From Daucus carota subsp. sativus (Eukaryota > Streptophyta > Magnoliopsida > Apiales > Apiaceae), in the NCBI RefSeq assembly GCF_001625215.2, contig NC_030387.2, forward strand, positions 6,786,501 through 6,850,500: 64,000 nucleotides of DNA, given 5' to 3'. Below the pieces are notes generated by a model, which was not told the origin of the DNA, made no database searches, and was given only the letters and a program-made list of their open reading frames with translations. Of this stretch, positions 45,841-59,755 are shown piece by piece. Position 1 is the first letter of the stretch; every line of letters begins with the position of its first letter. The translations under genes and the position numbers were made by a program.

Positions 45841-46144
45841 ATTTAACAGATAGGGTTTGTGCAAGGTGGAGATAGACATATCTGACATGTTTTTAACTTT
45901 AAGCTCAAAAATGTTGTTTGTGTAATAAGTCAATAGTTGACTTAAAGTTAGGATTAAATTAGAAATTGACTTAAAGTCAGAAGTTAATTTGACATATTTT
46001 TTTTGGTGACTTAATTTTTTTTGATTAAAATTAAACATAAGTCATAAATTATCCATAAATCATTTTTACTTTTATTATTATATTTTTAATAATGCATAAG
46101 TCATTAATAAGTCAAAATTACCCGAACAAACATTTTAAAATTTC
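45841..46144. other. Target region of the MULE insertion
   Basis: Rich in AAGTCA/TAAGTCATAA motifs on the left of the MULE, and the same motifs resume right of it (59534-59590). The MULE therefore appears to have inserted into an older short repeat. The last nine bases (46136-46144) are the left target duplication. Confidence 0.55.
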
Positions 46145-46235
46145 GAAAAAAGGCCCAGAATAACCATATTTTAAAGATAAGTGCCCATAATAACAATATT
46201 TTGTAATATGGCCCCTAATAACCATTAGAGACGCA
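46145..46235. repeat. Left terminal inverted repeat of the MULE
   Basis: Contains three blocks GCCC-AGAATAACCATATTTT, GCCC-ATAATAACAATATTTT and GCCC-CTAATAACCATTAG at roughly 30-bp spacing. It aligns with indels to the reverse complement of 59433-59524. Confidence 0.8.
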
Positions 46236-46241
46236 GAGCTA

Positions 46242-46332
46242 GTAGCGTTTTTCATATAAGACCAAGTCGCTACAGCGTGTAGCGTTTTACTCTTTTTTAC
46301 TAAAGAGCAAAACGCTACACGCAGTAGCGTCT
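46242..46332. repeat. Palindrome cluster L: AAACGCTAC/GTAGCGTTT motifs near left end
   Basis: Three sites: GTAGCGTTT (46242), CGCTAC-AGCGT-GTAGCGTTT (46268-46287) and AAACGCTAC-ACGCA-GTAGCGTCT (46310-46332). They lie between the left terminal repeat and the PMD gene start (46473), next to a TATA-like stretch TTTATATATATACACC at about 46336-46351. Confidence 0.9.
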
Positions 46333-46472
46333 TTTATTTATATATATACACCCCTTTTAAACATAACGGGACATACTGCTGTTGCTATCCGGTGAAAACA
46401 CAAGAGCTGGAAGAGAACCCACTGCTACAATCCACCTACTTCTGTTGATTCAACGATTTGAAGCAACTAATC

Positions 46473-49400
46473 ATGGATTTTCAGGTATGTGTAACTATAT
46501 TCCGACAGCTTTTATCTGATTTTTGTTTCGAATTGCATAGTTTCCTATATAGCTGCTATGTGTTCGATGAATTGTCTGTGTTAATATATGGACTGAATTT
46601 GGGCGAATACTTGCAGAGTCTGTGTTTTGATATGATTGTACAGTATAATTCATGCTATGATATGTAATTAAATACAAATTTATGTACGAATATAAGTTAC
46701 AGCTAATGATTGTGTCTTATTATTCCCCTATACTCGGAGATAATTACTAATAAGAAGCAAGGACAATGTTCTGAATATAACACGTCCACTTCTTTATTAT
46801 ATGTTCTATAAAGTAACTTGAACTGTTGATTTTCAAATACACTTGGTCAAACACGATTTCTCAAATTAGATAAGTCAAATGCCTGCCAGATTTTAATTTG
46901 TGACAGATTTATAGGGTATTATTCCAGACAACAATACTTCACGAGTATTTTGAGGTTATGTGCGTATGGATGTAAAATGAACGCTAAGGAGCCCTGCACT
47001 ACTCTTGTCCTACTGTATCACACGTATTAATTGCCATTAAATACAGTAGTTGTGAGTACATTATAGAGTATACCATTAAATAATAAATACATTAGTGATG
47101 ATAAGAACGGCCAAAGTGCAAAACATATGAGTGCAAGAACAATTAACCAATTTAGCAACTAAAACTTGCTAGGCAGCAATAAGCAATTTTAGATCCCTGC
47201 ATTTAGACATGTCTTCCGGGGAGAAACTGCACATAGTAATGTTTCTTTTGTTGGCTTTTGGTCATTTGCTTCCTTACCTGAAGCTAGCCAAGCTCATTGC
47301 TTAAAAGTGTGTGAGATCATTTATCTAGTTCTCAAATTTGGAATTCAATAATGTACCTTCACAACAGACAAATAGGAATCTGTTAGGCCAACATATTTCC
47401 CAACCATCGCGATCCTTACCTGTAAAGTGTAGTATATATTGAGTAAATAAGTAACATAAACAACAGTAGGATGTTAATTCAAATGAATGATACTAACAGA
47501 ATCTTTAAGGTCATCAAATTTCTGAGCTCTGTTATTCCACTCCTGTAAATTAGGTGGAGTAGCTACACTGGAACAGAGTTTTCATAGTAAGTCCGATAGT
47601 GTTCTATCTACTTATATTTCGTATATAATAAGCCAACATGTACCAGGCTACCACATTCAAGAAACGCTTACTTAATTAGGTCCAACTGCTTTAAAATGGC
47701 ATCATGAGCATTCTGGTTCTGCAGAGTAGTTATAGTTGGCAGTAGCCAGACTACAGAGCATAATGCATCTGTTTTTGTACCGAAATTTGTTGCTACAATG
47801 AGAAATATTAGGAGCTGCAAAAGCAGCTGTTATTGAAGAATAGAGAAAATGCAGTTATTGTTAGTTTTAGGCGTGTAGTATAATGTTGCTTAAGTTCCAG
47901 AATGAGTAGTGGAATGATATAATTGTTTCGTGTGATTTTATGAATCACGACTATATTTCTGATTGCTGATTCATTGGTGTTCATTAATGATTTAACATTT
48001 TTTAAGAAGAATAACTAGTTGCTTTACTTGTGCATTTGTCTAATTAAATAGTTAATTAACGAGTTGTTTCACTAATATTCAAACACACACACTCAACCAA
48101 ATTATAGTTCTCATTTCAACATTAACTAGTTGCTTTATTTTAATTAGTTTCTCTTTAAGGTTAGTATGATGTGCTGACTTTGTATTTCCTTGTTTTTGTT
48201 CATAGGCTATTATTAGAGACCAGGGACCTCGTGATCCTAGCCTTCTTCACCTACAGGCCAGTCATAGGTCTCGTTCTGTCTGGAGAACTAGTGCTGCGCC
48301 CTTGCAGTATTTCAGGCGTCGTGATGCCAACCAGTCTGATTTGAACATTGATGTTCGATTGATCCCCATTCTGCAGGCAGCTGGTATTTATGGGGTAGCT
48401 CGGGTATCCACTCTTCAGCTTGATTGGAGTTTGCTTGGTGCTCTGGTAGAGAGATGGCGACCAGAGACACATTCATTCCACCTGCCGATGGGAGAGTGTA
48501 CTATTACACTGCAGGATGTTGGTGTCTTGCTCGGGTTACCCATTGACGGAGAGCCCGTTATGTGTCCTGTAGGCCCTCCACCTGGACAGAGATGGGAGAC
48601 CATCGTTGGTGAGATATTTGGACAGATTCCTCCACCCGAGGCTTTCAATAACTCGAGGCTACGGCTCACATGGGTAGAGAGTCTCACTCCAGCGAGATTA
48701 CATGATGATGCAGGCGTTGAGGAGATCAGGCTTCATGCCAGGTGTTACTTGCTACAGTTGTTTGGGGGGTCACTGTTCACCGACCATTCTGGTGGACTTA
48801 TACACTCCTCGTGGGTTCATTTTGTTCGTGACCTGGAGGCGCTCGGAGGCTATGCATGGGGTCCAGCTGTTCTAGCTCGTCTATACAGGGAGCTTTGCAA
48901 TGGTTGCAAAGCGAGTATTAAGGAGGTAGCTGGATGCCTTCTCTTACTGCAGCTATGGGCATGGGAGAGGTTGCCCACTCTTGCCCCTGTTCGGACCACT
49001 GTTCCATTAGAGGATGTTGCTTTTTGGGAGCATCAGCTTCCAGGACCACATGGAGCCAGGTACATAGTAGCTGTGTTTTTTCTGGTTTGTACGTTTCAAG
49101 TTGTGAATTGTCTTTTTAAATTGACTAATGTGTTTTTTTGTATTCCTATGATGTCTATAGGTGGCTTGTTGGACATTCATTCGTTGAGAGTGATGGAAGC
49201 ACTGTGACTACGTCTCGGGCGGCATTGGATGCGCTTGCTCCACATGAGTTTATTTGGGAGCCTTATGCTGAGATTCTTGATACACTGCCAGACTATTGTT
49301 TAGCCGGCCGTCATATCTGGCGCTTTCGCGGCCCCATGATATGTGTTTACATAGTCGAGCCACATCAGTCGGACAGAGTTGCTAGACAGTTTGGCATGAT

Positions 49401-50420
49401 ACAGCGTATTCCGGATCAGCCACACTACTCCCACGAGCATCACGTTATGACGCTGAGGGGCCAGAAGGTCTTGGATTATGCAGTCGTACATCAACCGAGT
49501 ATGACACACTGGCAGCATCGTCTGGAGCATATTTGGACTGATGACCTGATTGATGGTCATGCTACAGTCCCAGAGTACATGGATTGGTACTTGCCTCGGA
49601 CTGTGAGGTTCATTAGTCAGTTGGGTGCACTGCATACCCACCTGGTAAGTATTTTTTGACTAATATATCTGCACTTTCTGTGATATGTGTCGTGTGTTTT
49701 CGTTATCTGTAGTTGGGGTATTAGTTGTATTAGTCGTCATGCTTTATTTGATGGGTTCTAGTAGTTGATATTGCATTTGTATTCGTTGTATTTCAGGGAG
49801 TTGTGCTAGAGACTATAGCAGCCAGGACAACAGACGTCCTCCCGGATATGTCCCAACTAGCCACTCAGAGTCTGCACCATCTCCGAGATCGGAATGCATA
49901 CAAGTTTGATCCACGTCAAGTTGAGGAGCAGGATGCTAGACAGGACGGGAGAGGGGAGGATGCAGGTGATAGAGGAGGCCGTGCTGGTGGCAGGAGAGGC
50001 CGTGCTGGTGCCGGGAGAGGCCGTGCTCGTGGCAGAGGAGGCCGTGCTCGTGGCAATGGAGGCCGAGGCGGTGGACGATTAGTTGATGAGCCGGATGATG
50101 ATGCTGATCATGCGGATCATATAGGTACAGGCGAGGATCGAGGCCCAGAGTCTTCTGCTACTGCTGCTACAGCTACTGTTGCTGATGCTTCTGCTGCTGT
50201 TGCCACAGCTACTGCTACTGTAGCCGAGGCTTCTACTCGCCCTGCTGCTGCTGCCGCTGCAACTACTACTACCGGTGCCGGTGACTGGTGGCCTAGTTTT
50301 TCTCTAGGCCTAAGTTTGCCTTCACAGCCAGTACCTGAGCAGCAGACTTCTCAGATGCCAGATACCAGTACAGAGCAGCCTCCTCCTGTTGTGCAGCGTC
50401 AGCACAGGATTCGGCCTTAG
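46473..50420 (+). CDS. PMD (plant mobile domain, MAIN/MAIL-like) protein, copy A (four exons, 657 aa)
   Basis: Exons 46473-46484 (MDFQ), 48206-49059, 49161-49644 and 49797-50420 join in phase. The tiny first exon and 1.7-kb first intron are inferred from a perfect donor after MDFQ and the acceptor before AIIRDQGPRDPSLLHLQ. Residues about 40-445 form the PMD (LLGALVERWRPETHSFHLP, GVLLGLPIDGEPV, HLQ-type helices). Exon 4 adds an RGG/GAR-rich stretch (about 501-545) likely to bind RNA or nucleic acid, then an Ala/Thr-rich linker. The frame stops 69 residues earlier than the matching exon of copy B, owing to a TAG where B has TGG. Host PMD proteins MAIN and MAIL1 act in the nucleus with the phosphatase PP7L and affect transposon silencing. 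The role in the element is unknown. Confidence 0.8.
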
Positions 50421-50600
50421 CATGGTACACAAGAGGTACCCCCTTTTGACTTGGGCAGCTCTTCACAGTCTACACAGTCTACGCAGCCTAGTCAGCCTGC
50501 TACGTCTACGCAGCCTAGTCAGCCTGCTACGCAGCCTAGTGTACCCCCTTTTGACGTCTTTTATGTTCGACGGTCAAAGAGGGCTAAGAAGGTTCCTGAC
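46637..50600 (+). repeat. 3,964-bp tandem duplication inside the MULE, unit 1
   Basis: Sequence from TGTACAGTATAATTCATGC (46637) to AAGGTTCCTGAC (50600) is repeated immediately at 50601-54564 with a constant offset of 3,964. Roughly 20-30 differences were noticed by eye, under one percent. The unit begins after PMD exon 1, so only copy A has that exon beside it. Confidence 0.97.
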
Positions 50601-53600
50601 TGTACAGTATAATTCATGCTATGATATGTAATTAAATACAAATTTATGTACGAATATAAGTTACAGCTAATGATTGTGTCTTATTATTCCCCTATACTCG
50701 GAGATAATTACTAATAAGAAGCAAGGACAATGTCCTGAATATAACACGTCCACTTCTTTATTATATGTTCTATAAAGTAACTTGAACTGTTGATTTTCAA
50801 ATACACTTGGTCAAACACGATTTCTCAAATTAGATAAGTCAAATGCCTGCCAGATTTTAATTTGTGACAGATTTATAGGGTATTATTCCAGAAAACAATA
50901 CTTCACGAGTATTTTGAGGTTATGTGCGTATGGATGTAAAATGAACGCTAAGGAGCCCTGCACTACTCTTGTCCTACTGTATCACACGTATTAATTGCCA
51001 TTAAATACAGTAGTTGTGAGTACATTATAGAGTATACCATTAAATAATAAATACATTAGTGATGATAAGAACGGCCAAAGTGCAAAACATATGAGTGCAA
51101 GAACAATTAACCAATTTAGCAACTAAAACTTGCTAGGCAGCAATAAGCAATTTTAGATCCCTGCATTTAGACATGTCTTCCGGGGAGAAACTGCACATAG
51201 TAATGTTTCTTTTGTTGGCTTTTGGTCATTTGCTTCCTTACCTGAAGCTAGCCAAGCTCATTGCTTAAAAGTGTGTGAGATCATTTATCTAGTTCTCAAA
51301 TTTGGAATTCAATAATGTACCTTCACAACAGACAAATAGGAATCTGTTAGGCCAACATATTTCCCAACCATCGCGATCCTTACCTGTAAAGTGTAGTATA
51401 TATTGAGTAAATAAGTAACATAAACAACAGTAGGATGTTAATTCAAATGAATGATACTAACAGAATCTTTAAGGTCATCAAATTTCTGAGCTCTGTTATT
51501 CCACTCCTGTAAATTAGGTGGAGTAGCTACACTGGAACAGAGTTTTCATAGTAAGTCCGATAGTGTTCTATCTACTTATATTTCGTATATAATAAGCCAA
51601 CATGTACCAGGCTACCACATTCAAGAAACGCTTACTTAATTAGGTCCAACTGCTTTAAAATGGCATCATGAGCATTCTGGTTCTGCAGAGTAGTTATAGT
51701 TGGCAGTAGCCAGACTACAGAGCATAATGCATCTGTTTTTGTACCGAAATTTGTTGCTACAATGAGAAATATTAGGAGCTGCAAAAGCAGCTGTTATTGA
51801 AGAATAGAGAAAATGCAGTTATTGTTAGTTTTAGGCGTGTAGTATAATGTTGCTTAAGTTCCAGAATGAGTAGTGGAATGATATAATTGTTTCGTGTGAT
51901 TTTATGAATCACGACTATATTTCTGATTGCTGATTCATTGGTGTTCATTAATGATTTAACATTTTTTAAGAAGAATAACTAGTTGCTTTACTTGTGCATT
52001 TGTCTAATTAAATAGTTAATTAACGAGTTGTTTCACTAATATTCAAACACACACACTCAACCAAATTATAGTTCTCATTTCAACATTAACTAGTTGCTTT
52101 ATTTTAATTAGTTTCTCTTTAAGGTTAGTATGATGTGCTGACTTTGTATTTCCTTGTTTTTGTTCATAGGCTATTATTAGAGACCAGGGACCTCGTGATC
52201 CTAGCCTTCTTCACCTACAGGCCAGTCATAGGTCTCGTTCTGTCTGGAGAACTAGTGCTGCGCCCTTGCAGTATTTCAGGCGTCGTGATGCCAACCAGTC
52301 TGATTTGAACATTGATGTTCGATTGATCCCCATTCTGCAGGCAGCTGGTATTTATGGGGTAGCTCGGGTATCCACTCTTCAGCTTGATTGGAGTTTGCTT
52401 GGTGCTCTGGTAGAGAGATGGCGACCAGAGACACATTCATTCCACCTGCCGATGGGAGAGTGTACTATTACACTGCAGGATGTTGGTGTCTTGCTCGGGT
52501 TACCCATTGACGGAGAGCCCGTTATGTGTCCTGTAGGCCCTCCACCTGGACAGAGATGGGAGACCATCGTTGGTGAGATATTTGGACAGATTCCTCCACC
52601 CGAGGCTTTCAATAACTCGAGGCTACGGCTCACATGGGTAGAGAGTCTCACTCCAGCGAGATTACATGATGATGCAGGCGTTGAGGAGATCAGGCTTCAC
52701 GCCAGGTGTTACTTGCTACAGTTGTTTGGGGGGTCACTGTTCACCGACCATTCTGGTGGACTTATACACTCCTCGTGGGTTCATTTTGTTCGTGACCTGG
52801 AGGCGCTCGGAGGCTATGCATGGGGTCCAGCTGTTCTAGCTCGTCTATACAGGGAGCTTTGCAATGGTTGCAAAGCGAGTATTAAGGAGGTAGCTGGATG
52901 CCTTCTCTTACTGCAGCTATGGGCATGGGAGAGGTTGCCCACTCTTGCCCCTGTTCGGACCACTGTTCCATTAGAGGATGTTGCTTTTTGGGAGCATCAG
53001 CTTCCAGGACCACATGGAGCCAGGTACATAGTAGCTGTGTTTTTACTGGTTTGTACATATCAAGTTGTGAATTGTCTTTTTAAATTGACTAATGTGTTTT
53101 TTTGTATTCCTATGATGTCTATAGGTGGCTTGTTGGACATGCATTCGTTGAGAGTGATGGAAGCACTGTGACTACGTCTCGGGCGGCATTGGATGCGCTT
53201 GCTCCACATGAGTTTATTTGGGAGCCTTATGCTGAGATTCTTGATACACTGCCAGACTATTGTTTAGCCGGCCGTCATCTATGACGCTTTCGCGGCCCCA
53301 TGATATGTGTTTACATAGTCGAGCCACATCAGTCGGACAGAGTTGCTAGACAGTTTGGCATGATACAGCGTATTCCGGATCAGCCACACTACTCCCACGA
53401 GCATCACGTTATGACGCTGAGGGGCCAGAAGGTCTTGGATTATGCAGTCGTACATCAGCCGAGTATGACACACTGGCAGCATCGTCTGGAGCATATTTGG
53501 ACTGATGACCTGATTGATGGTCATGCTACAGTCCCAGAGTACATGGATTGGTACTTGCCTCGGACTGTGAGGTTCATTAGTCAGTTGGGTGCACTGCATA

Positions 53601-54564
53601 CCCACCTGGTAAGTATTTTTTGACTATTATATCAGCACTTTCTGTGATATGTGTCGTGTGTTTTCGTTATCTGTAGTTGGGGTATTAGTTGTATTAGTCG
53701 TCATGCTTTATTTGATGGGTTCTAGTAGTTGATATTGCATTTGTATTCGTTGTATTTCAGGGAGTTGTGCTAGAGACTATAGCAGCCAGGACAGCAGACG
53801 TCCTCCCGGATATGTCCCAACTAGCCACTCAGAGTCTGCACCATCTCCGAGATCGGAATGCATACAAGTTTGATCCACGTCAAGTTGAGGAGCAGGATGC
53901 TAGACAGGACGGGGGAGGGGAGGATGCAGGTGATAGAGGAGGCCGTGGTGGTGGCAGGAGAGGCCGTGCTGGTGCCGGGAGAGGCCGTGCTCGTGGCAGA
54001 GGAGGCCGTGCTCGTGGCAATGGAGGCCGAGGCGGTGGACGATTAGTTGATGAGCCGGATGATGATGCTGATCATGCGGATCATATAGGTACAGGCGAGG
54101 ATCGAGGCCCAGAGTCTTCTGCTACTGATGCTACAGCTACTGTTGCTGATGCTTCTGCTGCTGCTGCCACAGCTACTGCTACTGTAGCCGAGGCTTCTAC
54201 TCGCCCTGCTGCTGCTGCCGCTGCAGCTACTACTACCGGTGCCGGTGACTGGTGGCCTAGTTTTTCTCTAGGCCTAAGTTTGCCTTCACAGCCAGTACCT
54301 GAGCAGCAGACTTCTCAGATGCCAGATACTAGTACAGAGCAGCCTCCTCCTGTTGTGCAGCGTCAGCACAGGATTCGGCCTTGGCATGGTACACCAGAGG
54401 TACCCCCTTTTGACTTGGGCAGCTCTTCACAGTCTACACAGTCTACGCAGCCTAGTCAGCCTGCTACGTCTACGCAGCCTAGTCAGCCTGCTACGCAGCC
54501 TAGTGTACCGCCTTTTGACGTCTTTTATGTTCGACGGTCAAAGAGGGCTAAGAAGGTTCCTGAC
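50601..54564 (+). repeat. 3,964-bp tandem duplication inside the MULE, unit 2
   Basis: The second unit abuts the first. After its end the original downstream sequence resumes as TGTGGTACTGG, so the junction shares the bases TGT with the unit start (TGTACAG). This pattern fits microhomology-mediated duplication or unequal exchange at minimal homology. Confidence 0.97.
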
Positions 54565-54591
54565 TGTGGTACTGGTTCACATAGGGGATGA
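52170..54591 (+). pseudogene. PMD protein, copy B (exons 2-4 only, internal stop)
   Basis: It corresponds to exons 2-4 of copy A (52170-53023, 53125-53608, 53761-54591). It lacks its own first exon, because the duplication starts downstream of it. Exon 3 has a TGA at 53282 after CLAGRHL, where copy A reads CLAGRHIWRFRG. Exon 4 is longer than in copy A and ends with a QSTQ/PSQPAT repeat, PPFDVFYVRRSKRAKK and a short tail, probably the ancestral C-terminus with a nuclear-localisation-like basic stretch. So each copy carries a different lesion. Transcripts from the exon 1 promoter could in principle splice into copy B, but that is speculation. Confidence 0.8.
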
Positions 54592-54730
54592 TGATATTTG
54601 TAGGTTTTTGATGACATTCTAGTTATAGGATGCTGAACTTGTGATATATGATAGCACGGATCTTGTAAATATTTTAATTTCATGTCGTATGTTTCTGTTT
54701 TAGTATAGCGTTAATGTTTTAATAATTAAA

Positions 54731-55772
54731 TTGGCCGACGGTTAGGGTTTAGGATTGAGGGTGTAGGGCCTGTAGGCCCTACTCCCTCGAGCCTAAACCC
54801 TAATTAAGCGAGGCTGAAGGGCCGAAGGCCCTGAAGCCGAGACGCCGGCGGAATGATAATTTTATAACCGTTAACATTTAGGGTTTAGGTTTGGGTTTTA
54901 GAAAGATTAATTCATACTGTATATAAATTGGCCGATGGTTAGGGTTTAGGATTGAGGGTGTAGGGCCGGTAGGCCCTACTCCCTCGAGCCTAAACCCTAA
55001 TTAAGCGAGGCTGAATGGCCGAAGGCCCTGAAGCCGAGACGCCGGCGGAATGATAATGTTATAACCGTTAACATTTAGGGTTTAGGTTTAGGGTTTTAGA
55101 AAGATTAATTCATACTGTATATAAATTGGCCGACGGTTAGGGTTTAGGATGGAGGGTGTAGGGCCGGTAGGCCCTACTCCCTCGAGCCTAAACCCTAATT
55201 AAGCGAGGCTGAAGGGCCGAAGGCCCTGAAGCCGAGACGCCGGCGGAATGATAATTTTATAACCGTTAACATTTAGGGTTTAGGTTTGGATTTTAGAAAG
55301 ATTAATTCATACTGTATATAAATTGGCCGACGGTTAGGGTTTAGGATTGAGGGTGTGGGGCCGGTAGGCCCTACTCCCCCGAGCCTAAACCCTAATTAAG
55401 CGAGGCTGAAGGGCCGAAGGCCCTGAAGCCGAGACGTCGGCGGAATAAATAAATTTACAACCGTTAACATTTAGGGTTTAGGTTTGGGTTTTAGAAAGAT
55501 TAATTCATACTGTATATTAAATTGGCCGACGGTTAGGGTTTAGGATTGAGGGTGTAGGGCCGGTAGGCCCTACTCCCTCGAGCCTAAACCCTAATTAAGC
55601 GAGGCTGAAGGGCCGAAGGCCCTGAAGCCGAGACGCCGGCGGAATAAATAAATTTACAACCTTTAACATTCAGGGTTTAGGTTTGGGTTTTAGAAAGATT
55701 AATTCATACTGTATATAAATTGGCCGACGGTTAGGGTTTAGGATTGAGGGTGTAGGATCGGCGGAATGATAA
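54731..55772. repeat. Tandem array of about 197-208-bp hairpin units with telobox motifs
   Basis: Units start at TTGGCCGACGG positions 54731, 54928, 55126, 55323, 55522 and 55730; the sixth is truncated. Each full unit has a long inverted repeat of about 29 bases per arm (TTAGGGTTTAGG...GTAGGGCC against GGCCCTAC...CCTAAACCCTAA) separated by a few bases, then a smaller hairpin AGGGCC-GAA-GGCCCT. A further TTTAGGGTTTAGG follows near the end. TTTAGGG is the plant telomere unit and AAACCCTAA is the telobox. Unit differences are mostly single bases. Confidence 0.93.
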
Positions 55773-56016
55773 TTTTTTACTTTAATTTAACTTAAATTAA
55801 TGCAAGGTTTTAATTCAAATTTCCATCAAAAAAGATTTGATATTTTTACAAATCATTTTTAATATACATTTTTAATTTAATATACATTTTACAAATTCAA
55901 TATACATTTTACAAATCATTTTTAATTCAAACAAATGTGTTTTTAAATTAAAAGAAATTTAATATGCCTATTAACAATCAGCGTTTTAAACATTTTAAAA
56001 AAAAATAATTAGATGA
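55773..56016. other. AT-rich linker between array and transposase promoter
   Basis: Low-complexity AT-rich sequence with repeated ATACATTTT and TTACAAATCATTTTTAA motifs. No gene. Confidence 0.5.
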
Positions 56017-56255
56017 AAACGCTACAACCAGTAGCGTTTTGTGTTAAAATATATTTTATATATGACCTAGACGCTAATGCGTCTAGCGTTTTGATTTTAA
56101 ACATTTTAAAAAAAATAATTAGATGAAAACGCTACAGCCAGTAGCGTTTTGTGTTAAAATAAAATTTATATATTAGCCAGACGCTATTGCGTCTAGCGTA
56201 TGGTATTTAAAATATAATTTACGTATCAGCTAGACGCTATTGCGTCTAGCGTTTT
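56017..56255. repeat. Palindrome cluster M upstream of the transposase
   Basis: Five split palindromes: AAACGCTAC-N4/5-GTAGCGTTT at about 56017-56040 and 56127-56150, and GACGCTA-NTGCG-TCTAGCGT at about 56069-56092, 56180-56200 and 56233-56254. The first two sit in a roughly 110-bp direct repeat. The cluster ends about 170 bases before the transposase ATG. Confidence 0.9.
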
Positions 56256-56424
56256 CTCTTTTTTTAAATGTTACCCCAGAACCTATACACACTGCCATAC
56301 ACACACTGCCTAACATAACACACTGCCTAACATAACACACTGCCATTTCACCCAAATATTGTTGTGCCCTAATTCACCCAAAATCTGCCCTAATTCATAT
56401 TTCAAACATTCTATAGATACAATC

Positions 56425-58810
56425 ATGGCTTCCGGTTCGGGTTCGGGTTCGGGTTCGAAAGCTGGGAATACGGTTGTTGGATGGATATACAATGACGGTA
56501 ATATTATCGAATCTCAATTAGAAGGTTTTATTTATGATAAACCTGTTTCAAAGCATGTTAGGTTAGATTTATCTATGAATTATGCCAATTTATGTGCTTT
56601 GTTACATTCCAAATTGAAGATTGATAGTAGTAGTAGGTTGCGGATATTTTATAGATCTAAAAATCCCGATAATTTGAAATTCGGGATTATACCTATTGAG
56701 GATGATGATGATGTAGAATTAATGTTTGGTGTTGTGGTGTCAAAAGGGATGCCATTTTTTGTTGAACTTTATGTAGAGAAATTGTCTTGTGATGGAAATT
56801 TGGTAAGGAGTAGTTCGAGTGTGGGGGAGAAGAGTAGTGGGCGTGATTCGGGGGGTAGTCATTTTAGACATGATCAGGATGTGGGTGATAGCTATATGTC
56901 TGTTGATACTTCCCATTTAGAGAGGATGACCTCATTCGACGATGTCGAGGTTGAAAATAATGAGGTCCCGTTGGAGTTGAAGGAGGGAAGGTTATTTAGC
57001 ACGAAAGAGGATTTGATGCATGTGGTGAAGCAATACCACATTCAGAATCACTTAGAGATTGGAGTGATACGATCAGATCCGAGTAGTTGGTATGTTGCTT
57101 GCAAGTATAGAAATGATGGTTGTATTTGGAAGTTGAAAGCTAGAAAGAGGACTTCACATGGTAAATTTCAAATCATGGAGAGTGTAGGACCACATAGTTG
57201 CTTGAGCACTACCATCACACGAGACCATCCCAACTTGACAGCCTCAGAGATTGCTGGAGTGATTAAATCTCAAATTGTTGCTGATCCGACAATTAAGGAG
57301 AAGGTGTTGTTGGCCACTGCTAAAGATAAGTTTGGATATGAGCCGGGCCGAAAGAAGATTAGGAATGCAAAGAAGATTGCAATGGAGGATATTCATGGCT
57401 CGTGGGAAGGATCATACGAGGACTTGCCACATTTGATGGAAACTCTTCAGTCCTTCAATGTGGGCACGAAGGTGGAGTGGTGCTTTAAGGAGGATGATGC
57501 AGAGCAACTAGAGGTATGTTCTATCACCGTGTAATTTAATTCATTTTCATTAAGTATTTGGACGCCGTTATTCATTTTCTAATGTAATGTTTGTTATTTA
57601 TTTGGAACAGGAAGTGACATTTAGGAGATTGTTTTGGGCTTTTAAGCCATGCATTGATGGCTTCGAGTATTGCAGACCCGTCATACTGATAGACGGGACT
57701 CATTTGTATGGACCATATCCGGGTGTTCTTCTGAGTGCAACAGCTGTAGATGGGTTTAGTCACATTCTACCATTGGCGTGTGCTATAGTGGAGTCGGAGA
57801 ACAACTCTAGCTGGGAGTGGTTCATGGATAGGTTGAGGAGCTTGGTGGTTGGTCGGAGGCACGGGATATGTATCAATTCTGATAAACATTTAGGGATCAT
57901 GGCAGCTATGCAGAAGGAGGGATGGTGTGAGCCACTTAATCATCATCGGTACTGTGTGAGACATTTTGCCACAAACTTTGCCACCAAATTCAAGAAAGCT
58001 GGATTGAAGGATAGATTGGTTGAGTTGGCATATCAGGTCCAGCCTAAGAAATTTGAACTACTATGGGGTGAGTTGTTGGCACTAGAGCCTCGAGCACTTG
58101 CATGGTTTGAGGACAAACCAGTAAGGAACTGGTCACTGGCACATGACTACGAGCATCATCGTTTTGGCATCATGACTACCAACCATGCTGAGAGTTGGAA
58201 CAAAGCAATTGTCGATGCTCGGAGGCTCCCGCTTACTTCATTGGTGCGAGTACTATTCCATAAGACGGTTGAGTACTTTGATCAACGTCGCCTTGAGATT
58301 GCAACACAAGTATCGAAAGGTCATATTTTCACCAAATATGCATCCCATCTCTTGAACCGTGCTGTAAGACGTTCCACGGGTCATAGTGTGAAGATATTTG
58401 ATCGGGGGACTTGGTTATTCCAAGTAGTTACAAGGAAGGATGGGTTGAAAGGGGGAAACACACACACGGTTCGTCTTATGGAGTCTAGTTGTACTTGTGG
58501 AAAATTTCAAGCTTATAGAATCCCTTGCTCCCATGTAATTGCATGTTGTTCACATGTGAGGATGGACTTCCATGGGTTTGTTGGTGATTGGTATAAGTTA
58601 GAGAACCAGTCGAAGATTTATAATGGTATCTTTGAGCCAATTCCAAACAAGGGTGATCCTCGATATCCTACCGAGCTTGCTTTCCTGAGAGTTGTGCATG
58701 ACCCCGATATGGAGAAGAAGAAGGGCCGAAGAAAATCAACGAGGTACAAGAACGAGATGGATTTCCAGAGCCGGGGAAAGCATGGAGGGACTTCATCGAG
58801 AGATAGTTGA
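56425..58810 (+). CDS. MULE transposase (MURA-like), two exons, 762 aa
   Basis: Exons 56425-57513 and 57611-58810, intron 97 bp, phase 0. The start ATG at 56425 (AATCATGGCT) is preferred; codons upstream in frame are non-ATG. Order: Gly/Ser leader, PB1-like N-terminal domain (about 15-115), acidic linker, MuDR DNA-binding-like domain with zinc-type Cys/His (ACKYRNDGCIWKLKARK...HSC, about 200-275), then the DDE transposase with ILIDGTHL (Asp 392), INSDKHLG (Asp 454), YCVRHF (CxxH) and NHAESWN (Glu 557), and a SWIM zinc finger CTCGKF...PCSH (657-671). All catalytic residues are present and the frame is open, so it may be active. It would cut at the terminal repeats and leave 9-bp duplications, as seen at the element's borders. 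Confidence 0.95.
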
Positions 58811-59074
58811 TTCTCTAGTTGTTTTTATTGTTGTAGTACTATGGTTCAAGTACAATTTGATATGGTTGTTTGAATTTGGACGCTATTGTATGAATGATTT
58901 ATGATATAAATCGAATTTTATTTTGTTATGAATTAGTTGAGATTGTTTATGCAATTTACATTGAATTTGGTAGTTTAAAAGTTTTGGTTTTTAAGTTGTT
59001 TGCGGTGTGAATTGGTTTTTAAGGTTGGCATGGCAGAAGGTTCTGGCTACTGCCTTTGGCAGAAGGAATAATAC
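58811..59074. other. 3' flank of the transposase gene
   Basis: Presumed 3' UTR; a repeated CAGAAGG...CTGGCTACTGCC/GGCAGAAGGAAT motif at about 59034-59068. Nothing else seen. Confidence 0.5.
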
Positions 59075-59440
59075 AAAACGCTACTCCTAGTAGCGTTTGG
59101 TTTAATTCATACAGGCAAAACGCTTTTCTAAGTAGCGTTTTACAGTTAAAAAAATTTAACTGTTTAAAACGCTATACTTGTTAGCGTTTTAGAAACTTAA
59201 ACGTAATTTGATCTAGCGTTTTATTTTTTTAAACTCTACTGTGTTAGTATTAAGCAAAATAATTTACATTAAAAGGAAGACGCTACTGACAGTAGCGTTT
59301 AAAAGTTTTCAGAAATTTGTTCTTTCCCTTAAACGCTATTTAACGTAGCGTTTTCTAACTTTTTAAAAAAATTTGCAGGAGACGCTACACGATGTAGCGT
59401 TTTGGTTTAAAAAACAAAAACGCTACTTCGCAAACGTCTC
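59075..59440. repeat. Palindrome cluster R near the right end of the MULE
   Basis: About eight sites in 365 bp: AAACGCTAC-TCCTA-GTAGCGTTT (59076), AAACGCTTTTCTAAGTAGCG (59118), AAACGCTATACTTGTTAGCG (59167), a half site (about 59213), GACGCTAC-TGACA-GTAGCGTTT (59279), AAACGCTATTTAACGTAGCG (59331), GACGCTAC-ACGAT-GTAGCGTTT (59381) and AAACGCTAC-TTCGC-AAACGTCTC (59415). The last abuts the terminal repeat. Confidence 0.9.
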
Positions 59441-59524
59441 TAATGGTCAGTGAGGGCCAATATTCGGGTATTTTGTTATTTGGGGCATTTTCACCTAAAA
59501 TCTGGTTATTTGGGACCGAAACCC
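59433..59524. repeat. Right terminal inverted repeat of the MULE
   Basis: The reverse complement reads GGGTTTCGGTCCCAAATAACCA, then GCCCCAAATAACAAAAT and GGCCCTCACTGACCATTAG, matching the left end with indels. The low identity between the two ends contrasts with the perfect target duplication. Confidence 0.8.
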
Positions 59525-59533
59525 TAAAATTTC

Positions 59534-59755
59534 ATCTTATCAAATAAGTCACGTTAAGTCATAAGTCACGTTAACTCATATGTCATAAGTTCAGATAGAT
59601 AAGGCTGTAAATCGATACAGACTATCGGGTGCCTCGGCCTATATCCGGCTCAAAAATATTTCATGTAAAATTAGTTAGTTGCTGTCTAGTTGTTCAAAGT
59701 CTGATAAAGGAAACTCTTGTAAAATAGAGAAAAATGCAAGGGAAGAGGAATCAAG
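59534..59755. other. Spacer right of the MULE
   Basis: Resumes the AAGTCATAAGTCA-rich target repeat for about 60 bases, then AT-rich DNA. Confidence 0.45.

Follow-up and report, generated by a model that had tools for sequence, protein, structure and literature searches.

The described systems closest to the transposon analysed here, a Mutator-like element (MULE) in a 64,000-nucleotide stretch of carrot DNA (Daucus carota subsp. sativus, contig NC_030387.2, positions 6,786,501 to 6,850,500; hereafter the window, meaning the whole stretch), are found in Arabidopsis, maize and mosquitoes; the papers cited below by PMC number are represented by their accessible sections. In the Arabidopsis VANDAL elements, VANC21 binds YAGTATTAY and VANC6 binds other motifs, which form one-way arrays in the noncoding parts (PMC5735166). 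In maize, the terminal inverted repeat (TIR) of Mu contains a motif of about 32 bp to which MURA binds, and the promoters of MuDR lie within the TIRs (PMC3310237). Muta1-type mosquito MULEs carry subterminal tandem repeats of 9-15 bp with linkers of 3-4 bp (PMC5225508), and in the CACTA (En/Spm) elements, TnpA is reported to activate the element in step with demethylation (PMC10398659). PMD is common in plant MULEs (PMC6446971). The general questions behind such systems are what prevents related transposons in one genome from cross-mobilising copies, and by what means their promoters stay open.

In this paper, we report that the window element carries sixteen inverted-repeat sites (dyads), which are element-specific, mark its ends and sit at its gene starts. 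This conclusion is well supported; the end-marking role follows from a near-fixed register from the tips, the retention of the dyads in shortened copies and their clusters upstream of the transposase. There is a reasonable, though far from certain, case that the dyads are two-fold symmetric putative binding sites for the element's own transposase. An earlier note on this DNA had read them as sites of an element-encoded protein that both mark the ends and control transcription. The part on end-marking and gene-start placement stands firmly and the rest partly: binding by an element-encoded protein is suggested, indirectly, by the change of the motif between sister families within a constant frame, and a control of transcription may be suggested by position.

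Dyads at the ends and gene starts of the window element

The earlier note had counted about sixteen AAACGCTAC/GTAGCGTTT sites in three clusters, and the number holds: the element contains 14 dyads like ARACGCTAC-N5-GTAGCGTYT (N5, a spacer of five bases) and one form with a four-base spacer (N4) at each terminus. The spacer, which had been put at 4-8 bases, is fixed at 5, or at 4 in the terminal pair; the three clusters are real, with the left one starting at 46229 rather than at 46242. The ends and the dyads are as follows, with indices counted from the tip.

46145 to 59524, + strand: complete Mutator-like element (13,380 bp), flanked by an exact 9-bp target duplication
46145 to 46250: left TIR, holding the terminal N4 dyad 46229-46250 at index 84
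46265 to 46332: left cluster, N5 dyads 46265-46287 and 46310-46332 at indices 120 and 165, upstream of the PMD gene
56017 to 56254: middle cluster, N5 dyads at 56017, 56069, 56127, 56179 and 56232
59076 to 59402: right cluster, N5 dyads at 59076, 59118, 59167, 59199, 59278, 59331 and 59380; indices of the outer six 122, 171, 224, 303, 335 and 384
59415 to 59524: right TIR, holding the terminal N4 dyad 59418-59439 at index 85

Three of the middle-cluster dyads (56069, 56179 and 56232) are composite, having the form CGC-N4-GCG-N4-GCG. The gaps of about 140 bases to the PMD ATG and about 170 to the transposase ATG are as the earlier note gave them, and its placement of clusters at gene starts applies to all but the right one, which lies 3' of the transposase. 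The dyads are mostly spaced by 41-53 bp. A ten-base helical phasing, with spacing peaks near 32, 42 and 50-52, was dropped as suggestive at most, since the copies are related.

A chance origin of the dyads is ruled out by shuffled and permuted controls. When up to 4 mismatches are allowed over the 18 arm bases, the 14 N5 dyads compare with 0.165 on average, and never more than 2, in 200 dinucleotide shuffles; for 288 permuted arms, the average is 0.25 and the highest count 4. The 64-kb window has 24 half-sites with one mismatch or none (shuffles: mean 10.0, maximum 19), all of them within 46242-59426. The motif had been said to occur nowhere else in the window, which is true of close sites, but three N5 places, each with 5 mismatches, lie outside the element; the core CGC-N11-GCG occurs 3 times in all in 46 kb of window outside it. 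Across the genome (441 Mb, 11 contigs), there are 115 perfect dyads with spacers of 3-9 against none for the reversed pattern. Among the matches listed, the spacer is exactly 5 in 49 of 50 perfect dyads, 28 of the 50 have a listed element match no more than 9.5 kb away, and two of the other 22 (on C2 and C4) adjoin element matches. The motif is thus scarce in background DNA and recurs in other copies of the MULE, and on both counts the earlier note stands.

The same placement recurs in the 17 long copies, i.e. those with transposase and PMD genes, some of them broken (loci are given below by our L numbers). Counted at up to 5 mismatches, they hold 229 N5 dyads, 221 of which fall into the left end, the transposase upstream or the 3' region (the leftmost 300 bases have 35, the 550 bases before the transposase 76, and the part from its stop codon to the right tip 110). 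The 40,465 bp of transposase coding sequence contain none, the other 84,682 bp contain 2, and the 71,688 bp outside contain 6. Both stray internal dyads belong to L011, in which additional sequence interrupts the left TIR; three of the outside dyads are the 5-mismatch window sites, and the other three are grouped at L005:34-134. The latter group, with 0, 3 and 4 mismatches, lies just beyond a complete copy and is perhaps a neighbouring element's end.

The distance of the dyads from the tips is nearly fixed. In 12 long copies, a terminal dyad stands at 81-88 in 23 of 24 ends (21 N4 and 2 N5), L008 having an end without one. All 38 ends of the 19 shortened copies (20 short loci, minus L026 and L037, where two ends were not found, plus L019) bear a terminal dyad, at up to 5 mismatches, and one or more besides. 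In these copies, the dyads usually start 84-85, 120-122, 162-175 and 212-226 bases from the tip; in two ends (L025 and L038) the dyad is at 101-103, the tips there being poorly placed. When the register was taken from 26 elements with exact target duplications, namely 24 of the window family and two sisters, a core was found at about 84-90 bases from the tip in 49 of 52 ends, and at 114-128 in 42 of 52.

Conservation of the dyad and its letters in sister families

The consensus of 331 distinct 47-base sites is ARACGCTAC-WNNNW-GTAGCGTYT, in which the arm positions carry 1.0-1.9 bits (the innermost 0.44-0.50) and the three central spacer bases 0.14-0.20 bit. Between copies, the arms are 85-88% identical, the spacers 52-67% and the 8-base flanks 51-56%, an arm/flank contrast that is an upper bound, as the arms may anchor the alignment and the sites were called by motif likeness. 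For the rest of the linker, part of which is TIR or 3' untranslated sequence, the corresponding identities are 83% in the 3' region and 69-70% in the middle one. These values bear on the idea that the dyads have no protein reader and are by-products of repeat slippage or hairpin formation. Part of the middle cluster is indeed a 110-bp tandem duplication, as such an origin would have it, but the arms stay while spacers and flanks diverge, and families that differ in letters still have the frame in common. Slippage as the sole origin is ruled out, since the arms outlast spacers and flanks, and we give the by-product idea as a whole hardly any credence.

The frame CGC-N11-GCG is constant across the sister families, while the adjoining bases vary, being TAC, mostly C, or AT. 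The L045 element, whose transposase is 67% and whose PMD is 58% identical to those of the window, has 10 sites of the form AAACGC-N11-GCGTTT in frame, in the same three-cluster layout. Its letters are looser, because the base after CGC is C in just 7 of 10 left arms, with the matching G in 5 of 10 right arms. Genome-wide, AAACGCC/GGCGTTT pairs with spacers of 4-14 number 29, of which 21 have N9, whereas the reversed pattern gives 5. The L045 cores lie at 88, 117 and 146 on one side; composites occur once in its promoter cluster and once in its 3' cluster (L045:1982).

The L046 and L047 elements are more distant (transposase 55-56%, PMD 45% identical), and carry mostly WCGCAT-N7-ATGCGW, with 9 and 10 sites in frame; no composite sites were found in these two. 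Pairs of the WCGCAT type with spacers of 4-10 number 716 genome-wide against 93 reversed, with N7 in 42 of 50 among the matches listed; single sites of this family mean little, because the reversed control is not rare. In L046, where the genes face each other, the cores lie at 89 on one side and at 88, 125, 170, 199, 255 and further on the other, to be compared with 87, 123, 168 and 88, 125, 174, 227 in the window. At the fourth sister locus, L049 (1.9 kb read), there are 2 CGC-N11-GCG and many single ATGCGTA half-sites, a pattern looser than that of L046. The single ATGCGTA(TCC) half-sites at L049:1400-1901, which for the most part share an orientation and have two or three dyads next to them, may show a step between arrays and dyads. 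In L048, from a distant MULE family (transposase 36%), no CGC-N11-GCG occurs in the 2,351 bp read, which cover the transposase side. Upstream of the L048 transposase (L048:200-900), short repeats of its own, CATGCACAGTAT and TTTTTGCAGAACCT, are perhaps a counterpart of the dyads.

This comparison, which the earlier note had called for, shows the motif letters changing within a constant frame beside divergent transposases. The same spacing with other letters suggests a family-specific docking code for an element-made protein. A host transcription factor that binds the dyads, the element borrowing promoter or enhancer parts, would fit the two of three clusters that lie roughly 150-460 bases upstream of start codons. 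Such a factor is unlikely, on the other hand, to track each family with new letters in one frame, to stay at a near-fixed distance from both tips in gene-less copies or to need seven sites 3' of the transposase, and we think its involvement very improbable.

Element-encoded proteins as candidate readers

Two kinds of protein are predicted from the window element, together with a repeat array between their genes:

46473 to 50420, + strand: PMD gene, copy 1, exons within 48206-49204 and 49129-49656 (Pfam PMD, E 2.5e-54 and 1.3e-21); gene structure predicted, with start ATG 46473 read from the sequence
50597 to 54591, + strand: PMD gene, copy 2 (Pfam PMD, E 2.4e-54), part of a 3,964-bp tandem duplication
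54727 to 55756: repeat array, built of a 197-198-bp unit (5.2 copies) that contains a pair of 29-30-bp hairpin arms
56425 to 57531, + strand: transposase exon 1, PB1-like N-terminus and DBD_Tnp_Mut finger (Pfam, E 7.4e-7)
57554 to 58807, + strand: transposase exon 2, MULE catalytic domain (Pfam, E 8.9e-17) and SWIM finger (E 2e-8)

If the transposase reads the dyads, it would do so as a dimer held by the PB1-like N-terminus, with one MuDR-type zinc finger per half-site. An end complex for cutting would form from the dimers that sit some 88, 125 and 170 bases inside each tip. Transcription of the transposase would be adjusted by dimers on the middle cluster, where composites with their third half-site are commonest, and transcription of the PMD gene by dimers on the left cluster. 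The DBD_Tnp_Mut finger is found in the transposase N-terminus at all four scanned loci (the window, L045, L046 and L049), below the Pfam cut-off in L045, and the finger of the window element is 53-60% identical to those of its sisters, the PB1-like part 42-60%. Presumably, DBD_Tnp_Mut belongs to one finger superfamily with the WRKY-GCM1 fingers. GCM1 binds ATGCGGGT. CACGCGC is the site bound by the FHY3/FAR1 proteins, kin of MULE transposases, and an N-terminal finger of the WRKY-GCM1 type is present in the maize FAR1 proteins (PMC11216215); the CACGCGC site has the CGC core in common with the dyads. The predicted model of the transposase N-terminus weakly resembles PB1 domains (6tgn, 1wmh) and DNA-bound Aft2 (4lmg, E 2.8e-3). 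Taken together, finger, fold and FHY3/FAR1 evidence leans towards the transposase as the reader.

Several points weigh against this assignment. The transposase model is of moderate quality (mean predicted local distance difference test score, pLDDT, 62.5), no match of it in the Protein Data Bank (PDB) reached E 0.001, the best structure match is SAP18, and the Aft2 match has template modelling (TM) scores of 0.15/0.41 and a root-mean-square deviation of 12; a sequence search of solved structures with the N-terminus gave two chance-level matches only. The counts are not independent, 24 of the 26 register elements being related copies of one family, and the copies were picked by matches to end sequences that hold dyads themselves, so that dyad retention is partly built in, while the exact distances are not. 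The linker DNA is well kept in the 3' region too, and the seven 3'-end dyads exceed docking need, because 18 of the 19 shortened copies manage with one to five N5 dyads per end. The sister comparison consists of four loci, of which L046 and L047 are near copies (96%), and a stretch of a distant fifth; moreover, the other end of L045 has no core near 88 by the strict pattern (a site near 121 has one inexact arm), and in L046 one end has a single dyad against eight at the other.

A further such point is that a PMD match lies nearby at each dyad-bearing sister locus; because PMD matches adjoin transposases at the dyad loci, PMD could itself be the reader. It would then be a captured host-type chromatin protein that keeps ends and promoters open in the manner of VANC, the transposase reading the outermost tip only. 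The dyads are concentrated in noncoding ends and promoters, and their letters vary between related families, as do the VANC targets (PMC5735166); a role of MULE PMDs in anti-silencing is also a published speculation (PMC5418596). However, anti-silencing needs no register, and that of the dyads from the cut site is constant across two families; VANC motifs are arrayed in one orientation, and the window motifs are dyads. In L009, L010 and L014, the motif is kept in the three clusters, with PMD 77-78% identical (333-residue frame) and transposase exon 2 96-99% identical to those of the window, which is a weak point against PMD. The histories of the two genes differ in these copies, as if PMD had been exchanged, because the transposase is so much closer than the PMD. 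The predicted PMD structure (mean pLDDT 30.3, no assignable fold) bears neither way, and a sequence search of solved structures with PMD gave no match. On this evidence we hold PMD as the reader to be unlikely, while deserving attention.

The two proteins might also share the sites; the tips would then belong to the transposase, and the middle cluster to PMD or to PMD in complex with the transposase. The distribution of composites in the 17 long copies (41 before the transposase, 4 within 300 bases of the left tip, 0 in right ends) and the promoter composite of the sister L045 would agree with such a division. Against it, the second L045 composite lies in the 3' cluster, so that the form is not promoter-restricted, L046 and L047 lack composites, and composite sites may descend from a single duplicated promoter unit, the 110-bp tandem repeat. 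A shared use of this kind seems quite improbable to us.

Returning to the transposase as the reader, we tentatively propose, as a possibility on which we would not insist, that the PMD-MULE clade shares the CGC-N11-GCG frame, in a register of about 88, 125 and 170, as a changeable address. Conserved finger residues would read the frame and drifting residues the neighbouring 2-3 bases, and each family would thereby assemble, transcribe and perhaps de-silence no copies but its own. As the genome holds at least three versions of the dyad in a common frame beside possible reader proteins, recognition can be tested by swaps of protein and site. The dyads are also a concrete DNA target for the published idea that MULE-carried PMD proteins act against silencing.

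As for the element itself, its transposase is of the MULE type, with Pfam MULE, Transposase_mut, SWIM and DBD_Tnp_Mut all matched. The target duplication TAAAATTTC flanks it on both sides, its ends read GAAAAAAGGCCC and GGGTTTCGGTCCC, and the left and right TIRs match in inverted orientation at 72-74% over about 100 bp. Target duplications at 34 loci are exact over 8-11 bp in 24 cases, have one mismatch in 7, some of whose ends are doubtful, and are missing in 3. The family has probably moved recently, because the genome has 19 further matches to transposase exon 2, with no less than 85% identity along 390 or more of its 418 residues, and 12 of these are free of internal stops. The PMD duplication (window 46633-54591), whose copies start 3964 bases apart and are 99% identical where compared, in the first 300 bases, seems private to the window copy, because the other 16 long copies measured only 8.1-9.3 kb. 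In copy 1, an Arg/Gly-rich low-complexity frame lies in 49752-50417.

The array of 197-198-bp units has hairpin arms like TTAGGG/CCCTAA and is present in the sister L045 too. The shortened copies are made up of the two ends, between which 17 of the 19 have part of this array as the main internal sequence; in long copies it lies between PMD and the transposase, and it may be a second cis element. At C9:39287489-39289316, consecutive units of the array occur with a period of about 400 bp, as if becoming a satellite. Directly outside the right end (59544-59585) there are 2.5 copies of ATAAGTCACGTTAACTC, and AAGTCA words similar to this repeat lie outside the left end (45930-46110). Rfam and tRNA scans of the window gave no match.

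Comparison with described systems

In the literature searched, which scarcely reached subscription papers, we did not find the dyad described, nor a dyad frame with changing letters and a near-constant register; element-specific MULE motifs as such are already known. The text of the carrot paper on miniature inverted-repeat transposable elements (PMC8227079) contains neither 'palindrom' nor 'subterminal'. CACTA elements also carry subterminal repeats, and they belong to another superfamily, with another target-site rule than MULEs; the likeness to their TnpA is one of working plan only.

Muta1 shares with the window family an N-terminal zinc finger, which in Muta1 is of the FLYWCH type, target duplications of 8-9 bp, and many nonautonomous copies that keep the TIRs, with variable repeat numbers (PMC5225508). 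The accessible account of Muta1 describes tandem repeats, with no PMD or internal cluster, unlike the spaced dyads found here. As in maize MuDR/Mu, binding sites and promoters lie in or near the TIRs (PMC3310237), those of the window element being predicted. A fixed tip distance and retention in nonautonomous copies, the plan of MuDR and Muta1, are found here in copies chosen through dyad-bearing ends. Unlike MuDR/Mu, for which a single motif is described in the sections available, the window element has dyad arrays at each end and an internal promoter cluster.

The Arabidopsis VANDAL/VANC system is likewise a MULE with a second gene and with clusters of short, family-specific noncoding motifs that vary between relatives (PMC5735166), and the density of noncoding motifs is matched here by the 221 of 229 dyads in three noncoding regions. 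The 13 translated frames scanned, which left out short exons, gave no match to DUF1985 or DUF287 of the VANC type; their Pfam matches were PMD, the transposase domains and weak EccD/GRP matches below the cut-off. Instead of same-orientation arrays, the window family has inverted pairs with a fixed spacer, and it further differs from VANDAL in its fixed frame, its near-fixed tip distance, its clear TIRs and its use of PMD as the second gene.

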